DNA from: Negativicutes bacterium
GTDB lineage: Bacteria; Bacillota; Negativicutes; Sporomusales; JAOACF01
Reading direction: 5' to 3'
Length of the DNA: 39,102 bases
NCBI GenBank assembly: GCA_026417995.1
Contig: JAOACF010000008.1
Location: 1-39,102, forward strand
Below the pieces are notes generated by a model, which made no database searches, was not told where the DNA came from, and was given only the letters and a program-made list of their open reading frames with translations. Shown piece by piece: positions 15-39,011 of the stretch. The translations under genes were made by a program, and so were the position numbers. Within the stretch, counting starts at the first letter, position 1. The number at the start of each line of letters is the position of its first letter.

Positions 15-1073
15 TTATTCACCGGTTAACCTCCTTTCTGCAGCTTCTGGATCTAGATATGGCGTCTGGACTTCAACCAGTTCTTTCCCTAAACGCCATA
101 GCGCTCTGCCGGGAGTGTCCGGCAAGTCTGCTGCGTGGACACTATCTAAGATTATTTTTGAGTTAATACTATCGGCCACTTGGAAACACAGCCGCCCCCG
201 GAAATTGGCCTTGCTCTGTCCAAAACGTTTAAATGTGTTTGCGTCTGGTCTTTGTGTCGCCGCTATGATGCAGATGCCCGATGACCGGCTGAGCCTTAAA
301 AGCGTTTCCACGTCGTCCTGGCTATTCTCGTCATTCAGTTCCGCCAGCTCATCAATTACCAGCACGACATATGGCAGTGGCCCATGTTTAGCATTATATT
401 TGGCTATATTGACGCATTTAGCATCTTTTAGCAGCCTTTGCCTGCGCCGCATCTCTGCAACTAGCCTTTGTAGCGTTCGCGCAGCTCCTTCATGGTCAGT
501 GACCAAGAAAGCGTGATTTTCCAGGTAGTTGTATTCTGACATTTTCAAGTCAATCAAAATGATTTCGGGTCGGACAGGCAGATGAATTAGCGAGTTCACA
601 ATCACGTGGATTGCATTTGACTTACCGCCGCCCGTGATGCCGCCAATGAGAAGGTGCGGTATATCGGCAAGGTCTACGACGATTAACTCCTGGTGCGTAT
701 AACCGATCGGGATTGGGAGTACCCCATGCTTCGGATAGTCCCAGTCATATTCGTACCGCGATTTTAGCCGTTGCGTAACCACTCTCACTAATGCCATTTT
801 GCCGCTATGGATAATATCGACCGTACTATGGAGCCCTATCGCGTCTCGGAAATATTCGCGCCGGGCGGCGAAGTCGCGAAAACTGATTCCTGCGGGCAAC
901 TCGTAGTAGAAATCATACCCCAGTGCAGTTTTTTTGCGACTGTGTAATTGCGGCCGCTTTTCTTCTGCCCAGATCGCTTCGATGACTTCTGATATAGCAA
1001 GCGGAACTTCTTGGCCCAGCAGCGGCAAAATGATCTGCCGTAGCTCGTTTTTGAGTTCGGATAGTATATTCAC
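15..1073 (-). CDS. FtsK/SpoIIIE-like DNA translocase ATPase
   Basis: 352 aa; Walker A-like GGITGGGKSNAIH, Walker B-like VLVIDELAEL, ATQRPDA motif typical of FtsK/TcpA; GTG start after GCGAGGTGA. Confidence 0.9.
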   Translation of the reverse strand: MNILSELKNELRQIILPLLGQEVPLAISEVIEAIWAEEKRPQLHSRKKTALGYDFYYELPAGISFRDFAARREYFRDAIGLHSTVDIIHSGKMALVRVVTQRLKSRYEYDWDYPKHGVLPIPIGYTHQELIVVDLADIPHLLIGGITGGGKSNAIHVIVNSLIHLPVRPEIILIDLKMSEYNYLENHAFLVTDHEGAARTLQRLVAEMRRRQRLLKDAKCVNIAKYNAKHGPLPYVVLVIDELAELNDENSQDDVETLLRLSRSSGICIIAATQRPDANTFKRFGQSKANFRGRLCFQVADSINSKIILDSVHAADLPDTPGRALWRLGKELVEVQTPYLDPEAAERRLTGE

Positions 1074-23080: not shown

Positions 23081-23614
23081 TTATGACATGTCCATTATGC
23101 TGTCCATACCAAAGATTAAGGCGCTTAATTTTTCACAAGCATCACGGATATCACGATAACATGTGCGCTCCTCAATCCCCTCACGCCGCATAATTTCAGC
23201 CATTTCAACGTTTTCGAAATAATACGCACTCAAAACTCTATACCGCCTTTTATCTTCTTCCCTCTTTGATTTTTCACAATAAACCGCATAGAGATCTAAC
23301 ATAGTGTCAATATGTGTCAAGATGATGTAAGTGCGAGTAACCGATTTTTTTATAGATTCGATATATGTTTTACTATCAAACCTTTCCATTGCATCCAAAA
23401 TATCTATAGCGTTTTCAGTGGTTTGTTGGAGACTGTAAACTGATCTGCTACAATGTTCTTTAAGAAGATGATAATTTTTTAGCAGCAACCTAGTATTACG
23501 GAGTCGCTTATCGTGTCGCGATTTGACTTGCTTTTTTCGCTGTTCCTCCATATACTCGATAGCTGCTTTGACGCCAGTTTCTGCCGCTAATGTCACGATT
23601 TGGTCTTTGTTCAT
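23081..23614 (-). CDS. ArpU/RinA-like late transcription regulator (sigma-like C-terminal region)
   Basis: 177 aa; RYRVLSAYYFENVEMAEIMRREGIEERTCYRDIRDACEKLSALIFG; last gene before the terminase region. Confidence 0.7.
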   Translation of the reverse strand: MNKDQIVTLAAETGVKAAIEYMEEQRKKQVKSRHDKRLRNTRLLLKNYHLLKEHCSRSVYSLQQTTENAIDILDAMERFDSKTYIESIKKSVTRTYIILTHIDTMLDLYAVYCEKSKREEDKRRYRVLSAYYFENVEMAEIMRREGIEERTCYRDIRDACEKLSALIFGMDSIMDMS

Positions 23615-24021
23615 CTTACTCCTCCCGTGGGCTGCACGATCATTCGCCCTGTATCATATCTCTTGCGCAGTTCTCGCAGACACATAATCAGTACATCAGT
23701 AAAATCGTTCAGACATTGCTTTTCAATATCGTATTGCTCCTGCGACATCCAACCCCGAAATCCCTGCGGGTCAATGATTGGCTTTACCACAAAACCAAAC
23801 TGATCATCACGCACTAAATTGGCGCCGACGCGCCTGATATAGTCAAGCCGTTCAAATAGTTGTTTGTTCGGTGTTACCGTATCAGCTATTATGAAAAGCT
23901 CCAGCCACAGATGACTATCCGCCGGCGAATATGGATATTGATCACGGTACACTCTCCCGAAATGATTGAGCACTGCCTCATGATGTTTTGGGTGTTGCTG
24001 AATGAAGTCGTATAGCTCCAT
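23611..24021 (-). CDS. Hypothetical phage protein
   Basis: MELYDFIQQHPKHHEAVLNHFGRVYRD...; RBS GAGGAGTGACTACC; ATGA overlap with next gene. Confidence 0.65.
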   Translation of the reverse strand: MELYDFIQQHPKHHEAVLNHFGRVYRDQYPYSPADSHLWLELFIIADTVTPNKQLFERLDYIRRVGANLVRDDQFGFVVKPIIDPQGFRGWMSQEQYDIEKQCLNDFTDVLIMCLRELRKRYDTGRMIVQPTGGVR

Positions 24022-24039
24022 GGTAGTCACTCCTCTTCT

Positions 24040-24326
24040 AGTTGGTTCAGTTGGATCATAGTTGGGTCAAAAGTTGGATCAAAAAAATCCAGTATTTATA
24101 AGGCTTCGTTGGCATTTGAACCAACTGATACAACCAATTTTACAAAAAACATAGTTATAGAAAATATACCTTGTTGATATGGTACCTTTATAAGGTGGCA
24201 TGGTGGTTTTACTCTGTATATATAAATATTAGTTGGATCAGTTGTATCAATCCTTATAAATATAGATATATCAAGGCTTTGCGCTGAACCAACTTTGATC
24301 CAACTTTGATCCAACTTGATCCAACT
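24040..24326. repeat. Iteron-like cluster of about 12 AGTTGGATCA-type decamers in both orientations
   Basis: Copies at 24040, 24049, 24060, 24072, 24231, 24240 (plus) and 24117, 24126, 24285, 24296, 24307, 24317 (minus). Confidence 0.9.
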
Positions 24327-24329
24327 TTT

Positions 24330-27278
24330 TTAAAATTCAGCCTTAACACGTATTAACCAAGGCTGTACACCATTGATACGTTTATGCTTAATGCCGAAGG
24401 TTTGCTTCTCGCCAACCTGAGTTACCGGTATTCGCCTCTGCTCCGCCCATCGGCGGAATATTTTTTCCGGTGCATACCCCTGCTGCCGCATGGCCATAGC
24501 TAGCTCGGTTTTCAAAATATAAATATAACTGTCCTCGGTGTAGCCGACAATCGCCGCAGCAGTTTTGGCATATGTCCCAAACCGGCCTTCGTTGGCCGCA
24601 ATCCAGCCCTGCAGCCACTGCCAGGCACGCTCCGAATCGTCAGCATCCTCCCGGGTAACGAGCTGCGCGATGATATATTCCGCCATCTGTACTGCCGCAT
24701 AAGATGCGGCTGATTTTTCTTCGCCGAAGATCCACATGCCAGCGAGTTGATCGGCAAGCGCTACACAGGCAATGGCGTCCAAGTGTGCATCGATGCGCTC
24801 CGGATATTTCTCGCGCAGCCGGCACCGCATGCCGTCATAGACCTGCTGGATCTCAGTGTGGTTGACGGCCAGCAGGTTTTCGATGAACAACTTGCCGGCA
24901 TGACCGTAATTTTTATCAGTTACCCTGTATATGTTACTGGCAAATAGCTGATCATCGGCCAACGGCCCGCCGTAGATCTCCATTACGCGGGTAACAATCC
25001 CGCCTTTTGTATGCTCATTGATTAGCGGGTTTTCACCATTCATAATGACAACTGTGCGCCAAGTGGCAGTCTGCTGTAGCCCGGTTCCGGTGCCGCGACG
25101 GCGTCCCTTGCCTTCTGACAGCATGTAAATAATCGGATCAACTACATCCTGCTTTTTCTTGTCGCTTAGCGTCTCGTACTCGTTAATGCCGAGCGGCAAA
25201 TCAGTGCACAGCGCTGCTGTCCGTTCGATACCGGTCTGCGACGAATTGGCAGTAATCTTGAGCGTTCCTGGGTGGCCCCAGACGGACAGCGCAGCATATA
25301 GCGTAGCAGTCTTACCGTCACGGCTTGTTCCCCAATTATGGATTGCAAATATCCGTTGCCCAACGAGCTTAAGGAGCGGCGCGGCAAAGCTGGCTGCGAG
25401 GATAAAACGTGCCTTCGGCCTGGTTCGCAACAGTTGCATGGTCTGCAGCCATATTTGATAGTCGCCTTTTGTTCCGAAACCGCCGAGCACTTCCTTTGAC
25501 GCCTGGTCATCCACGTCCAGCACGTAGTTATTATTGAGCCCTGGACAAACAAATTCACTGTCATGGCTACGCCAACCGAGCTTGGCTACACCCAGTCTGT
25601 TGGCGATTAAATCCGCGTTGCTGGCCTCCAGCGCCGACAGCCACTTGCTTAAGTTCTTCGCCATTTCGGAATTGATAGTCAATCCATAGTCCGCCATGCA
25701 CATAATCTTGCGAGCATCAAAGATGGTTGATTTTGGCAGGACAACCGGTCGCCAGGTTCCTCGATGGTCTCGGAATATGACAACCGCTTTTTCAGTCTGA
25801 GTATCAATGTTGTAAATGCGTTCGGCAATTATTACCGGCGTATAGGACGCTTCCTGATACGTTTCGCCTCGATCTGATACCCGTTTAAGCATGATCTTCC
25901 CGGTTTTATTAAATATCCAGGACACATAGTTGGATGTACTTTTCGGCATTCGGAGCCGAACAGGAATATCAGATATATATTTATCTGCGTCCGGAGGCGG
26001 CTCAGGCTCCTGGCTGTTATCAGGTTCAACTATTTCTTCTGCTATGGCGGCCGCCGTCTCTCGCCGCGCCTTAGCCATCTCCTGACGCAAAGTGTTTTTG
26101 TTAAGCTGTCCGCTGCAGCGCTGAAAAAACACGTCAAACTCAGCCGGTGCCTGTTGCTTGAGCATGTTAAGCGCTGTAAGTATCTCAGGTTGATAGACAA
26201 CTTCCGGAGTTGGCACGGCAATCGACCGCACCAGGGCGCGTGCTTGCGGCAGTTTACCTAAGGACCACCCGCAAGGGGCCTGCACTCCGCAGCCGCCAGG
26301 CGGGCATCCCTGAAACCCGAGATGCCGGCGTATGTACTCACAATTTTGAGGATTCATCTGCTGCAAGCATTCGTCTATTTTTTTGTCACAGTCGTGCGGG
26401 TTATATCGTACCGGGTCCATGGCTGAAACCGCGTGTGCGGCCTGAATACCGTCATTGGCGCGCACTATGTTTGTAAGCGCTGCCAACCATTCCCCATAGG
26501 ATATTGTTTTTGCGTTTAACTGTACATGCTGCATAAACATGCAGTTGTGGAGCATATACGCGGCGGGACCGTCTGTTGGCCTGCGTTCAAACGACGTTTT
26601 GCGCTCCCGGCCATGATCCGCCGCCGAAATCGTATTGATTACCGGGATTTGATCAAGCAAATCTGACGGGTTATAGCGATAATCCGAAACTTCAATGACC
26701 TGCGCCTGGACCGGCGGCATTTTGGGTTTATAATTGAGCGTCCCCGGAACGCGCATAACGCGGTCGATATTAGATGTTGTGTCAAGATGCCAGCCTACCG
26801 CACCGGCTCGCTGGCGAATATATTCCTGCAGGCGCGCTAGCAGCTCCTGCGCCTGTTTTTTCTCCTCTGGCGTGTCGAAATACCAGCACTCGGAAAATAG
26901 CCACCAGGCATGAATGCCGTAGCCAGTCCAGACGATTATCGAAGGAGGAATATGTTCGGGCAAGAGGCTCATGGCCTCCTGCACCGAACGGGGAAGGTTA
27001 TCTCTCGCGTGAGCGCCGGGAGAGTAAATATCGATATCTACCCAAGCTGCCGGGAAGCCAATGATGTCGGCTTCCGCCCACTTATGATCGACGCTCTGTG
27101 CGGCAATGCCCGGCGAAAAATATATGTTAAGACCAGTAAAGCCGTTGATAATGTTCTGGACTTTCCGGAAATCGCTTACCGGTATCGACTTGGCCCGCTG
27201 CTTAGGGATTGTGAATATCTGTGTGTAGCCGCGCTCTGCGTACTCAAATATTTTTGACAGAAATTGTGTTGCGTCCAC
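24330..27278 (-). CDS. Replication protein: primase-polymerase-like N-terminus fused to DUF927-like helicase/ATPase
   Basis: 982 aa; WVDIDI, TGYGIHAWWLFSECW, DRVMRVPGTLNYK; later GQRIFAIHNWGTSRDGKTATLYAALSVWG and LPLGINEYETLSDKKK. Confidence 0.8.
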   Translation of the reverse strand: MDATQFLSKIFEYAERGYTQIFTIPKQRAKSIPVSDFRKVQNIINGFTGLNIYFSPGIAAQSVDHKWAEADIIGFPAAWVDIDIYSPGAHARDNLPRSVQEAMSLLPEHIPPSIIVWTGYGIHAWWLFSECWYFDTPEEKKQAQELLARLQEYIRQRAGAVGWHLDTTSNIDRVMRVPGTLNYKPKMPPVQAQVIEVSDYRYNPSDLLDQIPVINTISAADHGRERKTSFERRPTDGPAAYMLHNCMFMQHVQLNAKTISYGEWLAALTNIVRANDGIQAAHAVSAMDPVRYNPHDCDKKIDECLQQMNPQNCEYIRRHLGFQGCPPGGCGVQAPCGWSLGKLPQARALVRSIAVPTPEVVYQPEILTALNMLKQQAPAEFDVFFQRCSGQLNKNTLRQEMAKARRETAAAIAEEIVEPDNSQEPEPPPDADKYISDIPVRLRMPKSTSNYVSWIFNKTGKIMLKRVSDRGETYQEASYTPVIIAERIYNIDTQTEKAVVIFRDHRGTWRPVVLPKSTIFDARKIMCMADYGLTINSEMAKNLSKWLSALEASNADLIANRLGVAKLGWRSHDSEFVCPGLNNNYVLDVDDQASKEVLGGFGTKGDYQIWLQTMQLLRTRPKARFILAASFAAPLLKLVGQRIFAIHNWGTSRDGKTATLYAALSVWGHPGTLKITANSSQTGIERTAALCTDLPLGINEYETLSDKKKQDVVDPIIYMLSEGKGRRRGTGTGLQQTATWRTVVIMNGENPLINEHTKGGIVTRVMEIYGGPLADDQLFASNIYRVTDKNYGHAGKLFIENLLAVNHTEIQQVYDGMRCRLREKYPERIDAHLDAIACVALADQLAGMWIFGEEKSAASYAAVQMAEYIIAQLVTREDADDSERAWQWLQGWIAANEGRFGTYAKTAAAIVGYTEDSYIYILKTELAMAMRQQGYAPEKIFRRWAEQRRIPVTQVGEKQTFGIKHKRINGVQPWLIRVKAEF

Positions 27279-36750: not shown

Positions 36751-36981
36751 TTATGCAGTTTGGTCAGTGGCGGCTGGGTCTGAATCGTTCAGCATCTCGG
36801 CCACCGATACGCCCAGGGCCGCGGCGAGTTTTTGTAATGTAATACCGCCGGGATTTTTTAATTGGCCGGTTTCGATTTTACTGATAGAGCTTTGAGGTAC
36901 ACCAGATTTTTCTGATAGCTCAGTTTGGCTGAGCCCTCTTAAATCTCGAAAAAACAATATTTTTTGCGCTATTGTACTCAT
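36751..36981 (-). CDS. XRE-family regulator (Cro-like), first gene of the lytic operon
   Basis: MSTIAQKILFFRDLRGLSQTELSEKSGVPQSSISKIETGQ; RBS GGAGGTGGTGAT. Confidence 0.85.
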   Translation of the reverse strand: MSTIAQKILFFRDLRGLSQTELSEKSGVPQSSISKIETGQLKNPGGITLQKLAAALGVSVAEMLNDSDPAATDQTA

Positions 36982-36993
36982 ATCACCACCTCC

Positions 36994-37094
36994 ATTCATA
37001 TTTTGATTATTATTTTATTCAAGTTTGAATGGCTTGTCAATTCATTTTTGAATGGGTTTACTAAAAAAATATGTGCTATAATTCAAATAAGAAT
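36994..37094. promoter_or_regulatory. Operator/promoter region of switch 1
   Basis: ATTCA-N4-TGAAT-type sites at 36994, 37017, 37040, 37081; minus promoter TTGACA-N17-TAAAAT (37040..37012); plus extended -10 TGCTATAAT (37074-37082). Confidence 0.75.
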
Positions 37095-38642: not shown

Positions 38643-39011
38643 CTATTTCTTCAAAGGTCTACCAATACCAGACGACAATAAGTACGCTGTCAACTGGTTT
38701 AAACTTACGTTTTCTTCTTTGGCCTTGCGTACCAGATCACGATGCAAAGATTTTGGCACCCTAACAACAAATTTGCCACTGTAATCTTCTTCACTGTTAA
38801 CCGGCTCAGGTATGGTAATGCCTTCTTCCAGGGCGCATTCAATCCATGCCCGCATGGCATCGTTAATCATGCGCACAGTATCTTCCAGTGTTTCACCCTG
38901 AGTAATACAGCCAGGCAGTTCAGGCACTACACCAACAAAGCCGCCCTCCTCTGCTGGAATTATTTCAAAGCGATAAGGGAGAGACAGGTAGTACTCAAGC
39001 TCTTTTTTCAT
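38643..39011 (-). CDS. HicB-family antitoxin with C-terminal DNA-binding region
   Basis: YRFEIIPAEEGGFVGVVPELPGCITQGETLEDTVRMINDAMRAWIECALEEG; FVVRVPKSLHRDLVRKAKEENVSLNQLTAYLLSSG. Confidence 0.85.
   Translation of the reverse strand: MKKELEYYLSLPYRFEIIPAEEGGFVGVVPELPGCITQGETLEDTVRMINDAMRAWIECALEEGITIPEPVNSEEDYSGKFVVRVPKSLHRDLVRKAKEENVSLNQLTAYLLSSGIGRPLKK

Follow-up and report, generated by a model that had tools for sequence, protein, structure and literature searches.

The replication origins of SaPI/PICI islands are located immediately 3′ of the rep gene (PMC6092414, PMC7581432), and carry an AT-rich region between two sets of iterons that has been proposed as the site of melting; the rep-ori segment of an E. 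coli PICI replicated on a plasmid (PMC6092414). In the case of SCCmec, the C-terminal domain of Cch2 binds to repeats situated 3′ of its gene, where the putative origin lies (PMC7581432). A different type is represented by plasmid pRN1, of which the AEP primase needs a GTG motif on the template and the origin is a stem-loop located 3′ of the gene, even though point mutations of the GTG motifs were tolerated in one study, with replication kept (PMC3869888, PMC4234260, PMC8076596).

The window analysed in this study, the whole stretch of 39,102 nucleotides, is one complete contig of a 2.65-Mb assembly (236 contigs) and carries a complete-looking tailed phage. For the segment 24040-24326 the initial annotation had proposed a candidate replication origin beside the primase-helicase, and its reading as an origin of SaPI type is now supported by the homology of Rep, the position of the array 3′ of rep, a layout conserved among relatives, and co-variation of the repeat word with the helix-turn-helix (HTH) of Rep. 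Taken together, this segment is very probably the origin of the tailed phage, its decamers presumably being bound, as in SaPI/PICI islands, by the C-terminal winged HTH of Rep.

Re-examination of the sequence bore out the starts and strands of all twelve decamers as first described. When both strands of the 39,102-base window were searched for AGTTGGATCA with up to one mismatch, 11 sites were detected, every one of them (11/11) inside the array, and the twelfth decamer, GGTTGTATCA at 24126 on the minus strand, carries two mismatches. When the same 299 bp were shuffled with dinucleotides preserved, the best decamer reached a maximum of 4 copies (mean 2.4; 40 shuffles) versus 11 observed, and only 3 exact copies of the decamer are present elsewhere in the 2.65-Mb assembly. 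The sites had been described as two inverted clusters; the inverted arrangement holds, but the number of clusters is four, two outer and two inner, in mirror symmetry about position 24183. The distal outer cluster (24040-24081, plus strand; four decamers spaced by 9-12 bp) is followed by a 35-bp spacer (24082-24116; GC 0.31, containing AATCCAGTATTTATAAGGCTT), an inner pair with 9-bp spacing (24117-24135, minus strand), a 95-bp centre (24136-24230; GC 0.25), which is the predicted region of melting and priming, a second inner pair with 9-bp spacing and a one-base overlap (24231-24249, plus strand), another spacer of exactly 35 bp (24250-24284; GC 0.31, containing AAGGCTT), and the rep-proximal outer cluster (24285-24326, minus strand; four decamers spaced by 10-11 bp). 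The centre, with six iterons on each side, corresponds to the AT-rich DNA noted earlier between the arms, the GC content being 0.33 for the array region and 0.48 for the window. As also noted earlier, only 3 bp separate the array from the stop codon (24330-24332) of the 982-aa rep gene (24330-27278, minus strand), and all the iterons are intergenic. No Rfam family was found in the window, and GC skew was uninformative, being negative nearly throughout the window with nearly all the recognised genes on one strand.

The rep product consists of an N-terminal AEP primase, an MCM-like DUF927 helicase and a C-terminal HTH, as judged from PHROG 8841 and 2478, PF06048, PF18662, the PDB profiles 8tch and 5dgk, and Foldseek. 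The model of the AEP primase/polymerase domain (residues about 1-210; 26649-27278, minus strand; pLDDT 80.9) gave the cyanophage S-2L PrimPol 6zp9 (E 3e-8) and RepB' 3h20 as the best Foldseek matches. Both the DUF927 helicase domain (residues 458-738; 25065-25907, minus strand; PF06048, E 6e-47) and the Cch-type HTH, which is the predicted reader of iterons (residues 880-966; 24381-24641, minus strand; PF18662 or HTH_56, E 1e-9), exceed the curated Pfam cut-offs, and this combination of a DUF927 core with HTH_56 is that of the SaPIbov1 Rep/Cch helicase family. The C-terminal 543 residues match, over nearly the whole length, the PDB profiles of SaPIbov1 Rep (8tch, E 3.6e-58) and SCCmec Cch (5dgk, E 2.5e-35), and the predicted fold of the same residues (pLDDT 88.8) retrieved 8tch and 5dgk as the first Foldseek matches.

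The locus agrees well with the SaPI/PICI origins in that the initiator is homologous to SaPIbov1 Rep including its C-terminal DNA-binding domain, the iterons lie immediately 3′ of the initiator-helicase gene, likewise in the relatives described below, and two sets of iterons surround an AT-rich region; in the SaPI-like PT1028 (L047), the spacing of the four clusters is the same. It differs from them in the iteron word, in the fusion of Rep to an AEP primase, in the ACC...GGT centre (see below), which PT1028 is without, and in its residence on a phage that encodes capsid, portal, tail and terminase proteins. PICIs are small satellites without full virion genes of their own, and the element in the window is not a PICI because terminase, portal, capsid/protease, tape measure, tail fibre J and endolysin are all present. 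The order of genes before the array is endolysin, tail fibre J, tape measure, minor tail, neck, capsid/protease, portal, and large and small terminase, and that after it is rep, a small endonuclease/Holliday-junction-resolvase-like gene, DEAD-type helicase, SSB, Sak4-like ATPase, DUF1351 and a CI/Cro-like regulator. The contig ends carry an FtsK/SpoIIIE-like gene on the left (15-1073, minus strand) and a HicB-like antitoxin gene on the right (38643-39011, minus strand). The gene next to the array (23611-24021, minus strand) is without family match or assigned function; since its probable start is the ATG at 24021, preceded by a Shine-Dalgarno sequence around 24030-24034, the distal iteron cluster lies just upstream of its leader. 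A product with a similar start (MxLYDYI...) is encoded after the array in L010, L011, L019, L029, L049 and L050, and this gene may be part of the replication module.

SCCmec Cch (5dgk) shares the helicase and HTH family with the window Rep, whereas the Cch2 helicase belongs to a D5-like family and the Cch2 origin carries only three short iterons. In lambda the iterons are located inside gene O, and the O protein is not a helicase, the host DnaB being borrowed; iterons and an AT-rich stretch are common to both phage loci, but the initiator of the window is itself the helicase and its iterons are outside the coding sequence. The protein ORF904 of pRN1 resembles Rep in combining AEP primase, helicase and winged helix in a single polypeptide with the origin 3′ of the gene, and the central element of the window possibly carries a primase-recognised motif, as GTG is in pRN1. 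On the other hand, pRN1 is without described iterons, the ORF904 helicase belongs to SF3, and the pRN1 origin is a stem-loop of about 100 bp, whereas the window centre contains no significant inverted repeat (p 0.68). Several relatives do have one, and a perfect central hairpin was rejected as a general rule, since roughly half of the loci, the window not among them, gave a significant result.

Relatives of the helicase-plus-HTH half of Rep, with 20-58% identity over that half, were sought in the order and the class, in IMG/VR and GTDB genomes, and in named phages and plasmids; single-protein scans of viral and genome contigs gave no relatives, but alignment queries of the contigs did find them. 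Conservation of the repeats, which the initial annotation had named as a check, was observed for the plan of the array, with the word differing among loci. In most relatives the rep gene is followed directly on its 3′ side by an array that keeps this plan while using another word. Counting the window, the plan was recognised at 33 loci, which come from Negativicutes, further Bacillota, Synergistota and phages; the SaPI-like PT1028 is one of them, as are two isolated phages, THSA-485A and FP_Epona. The words, not listed exhaustively, include GTTAGACAA, GTTGGACAA, GTTGCGTCA, CTTGGTTCA, GTCGGTTCA, GTTGGTCT and GTTAGTTCA, and further GATAGTCC, GTGGGTACC, GTGGGAACC, GTAGGATAC, GTGGTACA, GTTGTCCC, GTTGAAGC and TGTAAGAC. 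Four loci (L020, L023, L037 and L039) carry no array directly 3′ of rep, and the viral loci L068-L083, which have only the primase part in common, encode other helicases with no comparable arrays directly 3′ and were set aside as a test. A 39.8-kb plasmid of Eubacterium callanderi (p1_EUCAMar, L112) carries phage-like genes and a DUF927 Rep, followed 3′ of rep by GTTCCCG/GGGAACT repeats, a word near that of PT1028.

Throughout the 33 loci, for which the iteron registers and inner pairs of the relatives were chosen partly by eye, the inner pairs are mutually inverted, with a spacing of 8-9 bp between their sites (65 of 66 cases), and the start-to-start length of the centre is 87-150 bp (median 105). 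The gaps between outer and inner sites form two groups, 43-48 and 52-57 bp, that differ by roughly a helical turn, and a few others measure 33 or 64-68 bp; the phasing of the gaps is best at 10-10.5 bp (R 0.70), nearby periods scoring too. The distal outer sites differ in number and orientation (RRRR, FF, RF or RFF); strict mirror symmetry is therefore restricted to the window and some relatives, and the inner pairs form the constant core. In L018 and L060 the distal arm is forward instead of reversed, and extra forward iterons are present 60-100 bp past it, about 357-388 bases from the rep stop. Such variation of the outer clusters next to constant inner pairs, as if the roles differed, together with four outer copies per side, which may exceed the needs of a minimal hexamer-loading site, could mean that the segment is an origin and a control site at the same time, where Rep on the outer clusters would block transcription through the region or pair origins, limiting the copy number. 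Autoregulation and handcuffing by the initiator are known for iteron plasmids, but copy control is less needed by a lytically replicating phage, and this added role is conceivable though rather doubtful.

For the origin itself, the work on SaPI/PICI and SCCmec Cch2 suggests by analogy the following order of events. The C-terminal winged HTH of Rep would bind to the 12 decamers, and the mirror-image array would seat two Rep assemblies, presumably hexamers, each occupying one half (an outer cluster, its 35-bp spacer and an inner pair) and facing the other across the AT-rich centre. Melting of the centre and unwinding in both directions could then be the work of the MCM-like DUF927 motors, and hypothetically the fused AEP primase might lay the first primers on the exposed centre. 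An AAGCCTT-like element (AAGGCTT or AATCCAGTATTTATAAGGCTT in the window) was recognised in the inner-outer spacers of 10-16 of 29 loci per side and strand, versus 1-2 expected from shuffles. Besides the window, it is present in L009, L010, L011, L018, L048-L050 and L060; the two copies of the window (in 24082-24116 and 24250-24284) have the same orientation, which breaks the mirror symmetry. This element, the spacer GC of 0.31 and a spacer length phased to about one helical turn would also fit a scheme in which loading and melting take place separately on each half, with the AT-rich spacers opening first and the centre serving as an assembly gap; we regard it as unlikely, given that the centre is still more AT-rich (GC 0.25) and that in PICIs it is the region between the iteron sets that was proposed to melt (PMC6092414).

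The clearest evidence for co-variation of the iteron word with the HTH comes from sister pairs of loci. Between L018 and L060 (helicase 91% identical, HTH 75%), GTTAGACA is replaced by GTTGGACA through an A to G change at position 4, identical across the copies; between L019 and L029 (helicase 99%, HTH 90%), GTTAGTTC is replaced by GATAGTCC with the same two positions altered in nearly all copies; and in the pair L011/L050 (helicase 93%, HTH 68%) the copies also changed in concert. After control for helicase distance, iteron distance was correlated with HTH distance in the close set (n=10, r 0.32, p 0.02) and in the larger sets (n=24, 0.16, p 0.008; n=35, 0.14, p 0.004), much of the word-HTH correlation being due to shared ancestry because, in the wider sets, helicase distance correlates independently with iteron distance. 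A single genome, G016, harbours two elements (L013 and L017) about 55 kb apart, with related Reps and unrelated words, GTAGGATA and TTATTACA. That the decamers are instead operators of an unrelated transcription regulator controlling the late operon from 24021, and only incidentally near rep, is highly improbable: although the distal cluster immediately precedes the leader of the next gene, a Cro/CI-like phage regulator is encoded at 36751-36999, and the array contains one weak promoter-like match (a number also reached in shuffles), operators usually comprise far fewer sites than the twelve present here in four mirror clusters, relatives keep the array 3′ of rep with a word that co-varies with the Rep HTH, and the same position and layout make a working origin in PICIs (PMC6092414).

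With the array read as the phage origin, its centre deserves separate description. The window centre carries outward ACC.../GGT... elements, ACCTT at about 24168 and 24184 and GGTGGCATGGTGGT at 24194-24207, and loci with the AEP primase of the window type have ACC on the left and GGT on the right when read along rep. In 25 such loci, which are related to one another and represent fewer than 25 independent cases, GGT triplets in the centre averaged 4.6 outward versus 0.64 inward, outward exceeding inward in 24/25, and the values for 7 loci with a DnaG-type (CHC2) primase were 0.57 and 0. The strict pattern ACC..ACC...GGT..GGT had no match in the plasmid loci L110-L112, a result that carries no meaning because the window's own centre was missed as well. 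In L031 the centre holds a GC-rich inverted repeat of alternating purine and pyrimidine (CGCACACATGCGCGC...), as opposed to the AT-rich centres elsewhere. The sister group of the window in the helicase tree is L019/L029 (support 98/93); the N-terminus of L019 is PF09250 Prim-Pol in place of the AEP type of the window, that of L029 is off its contig, and their AT-rich centres are unrelated to that of the window (0 outward versus 1 inward), altogether one well-placed swap of primase. A candidate second swap, L104 versus L108, is equivocal with regard to both its centres (7/0 versus 2/0) and its tree support (82/60). Since the central ACC...GGT element tracks the primase type and is absent from the nearest helicase relatives with a swapped primase, we hypothesise that it may be the start site of the primase; such a priming role is plausible because the AEP primase of pRN1 needs a GTG motif and has its origin 3′ of the gene, though mutations of the motif were tolerated there. 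By extension, and quite tentatively, such origins might follow a code of three parts, iteron word with HTH, spacing with helicase, and central ACC...GGT with N-terminal primase, in which a swap of primase is accompanied by a swap of centre.

The kind of system described here is already known as the SaPI/PICI origin. What appears to be new, later phage reports in subscription literature or preprints being possible, is its spread in full tailed phages, the co-varying set of iterons and HTHs, and the centre linked to the primase. Predicted origins of SaPI/PICI type are common in complete tailed phages and prophages of the present set, so that a single family of replicons seems to serve both PICIs and phages. 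The relatives provide natural pairs of near-identical initiators with different words, such as L018/L060 with the one-base change in all copies, and these pairs, along with the genome carrying two elements of different words, allow direct tests of how origins are recognised, of incompatibility and of interference between prophages residing in the same host. If the centre is indeed the start site of the primase, this would help to decide at which place the first primer is made by AEP primase-helicases, and the matched pairs could be used to test how initiators of this family find their own origin.
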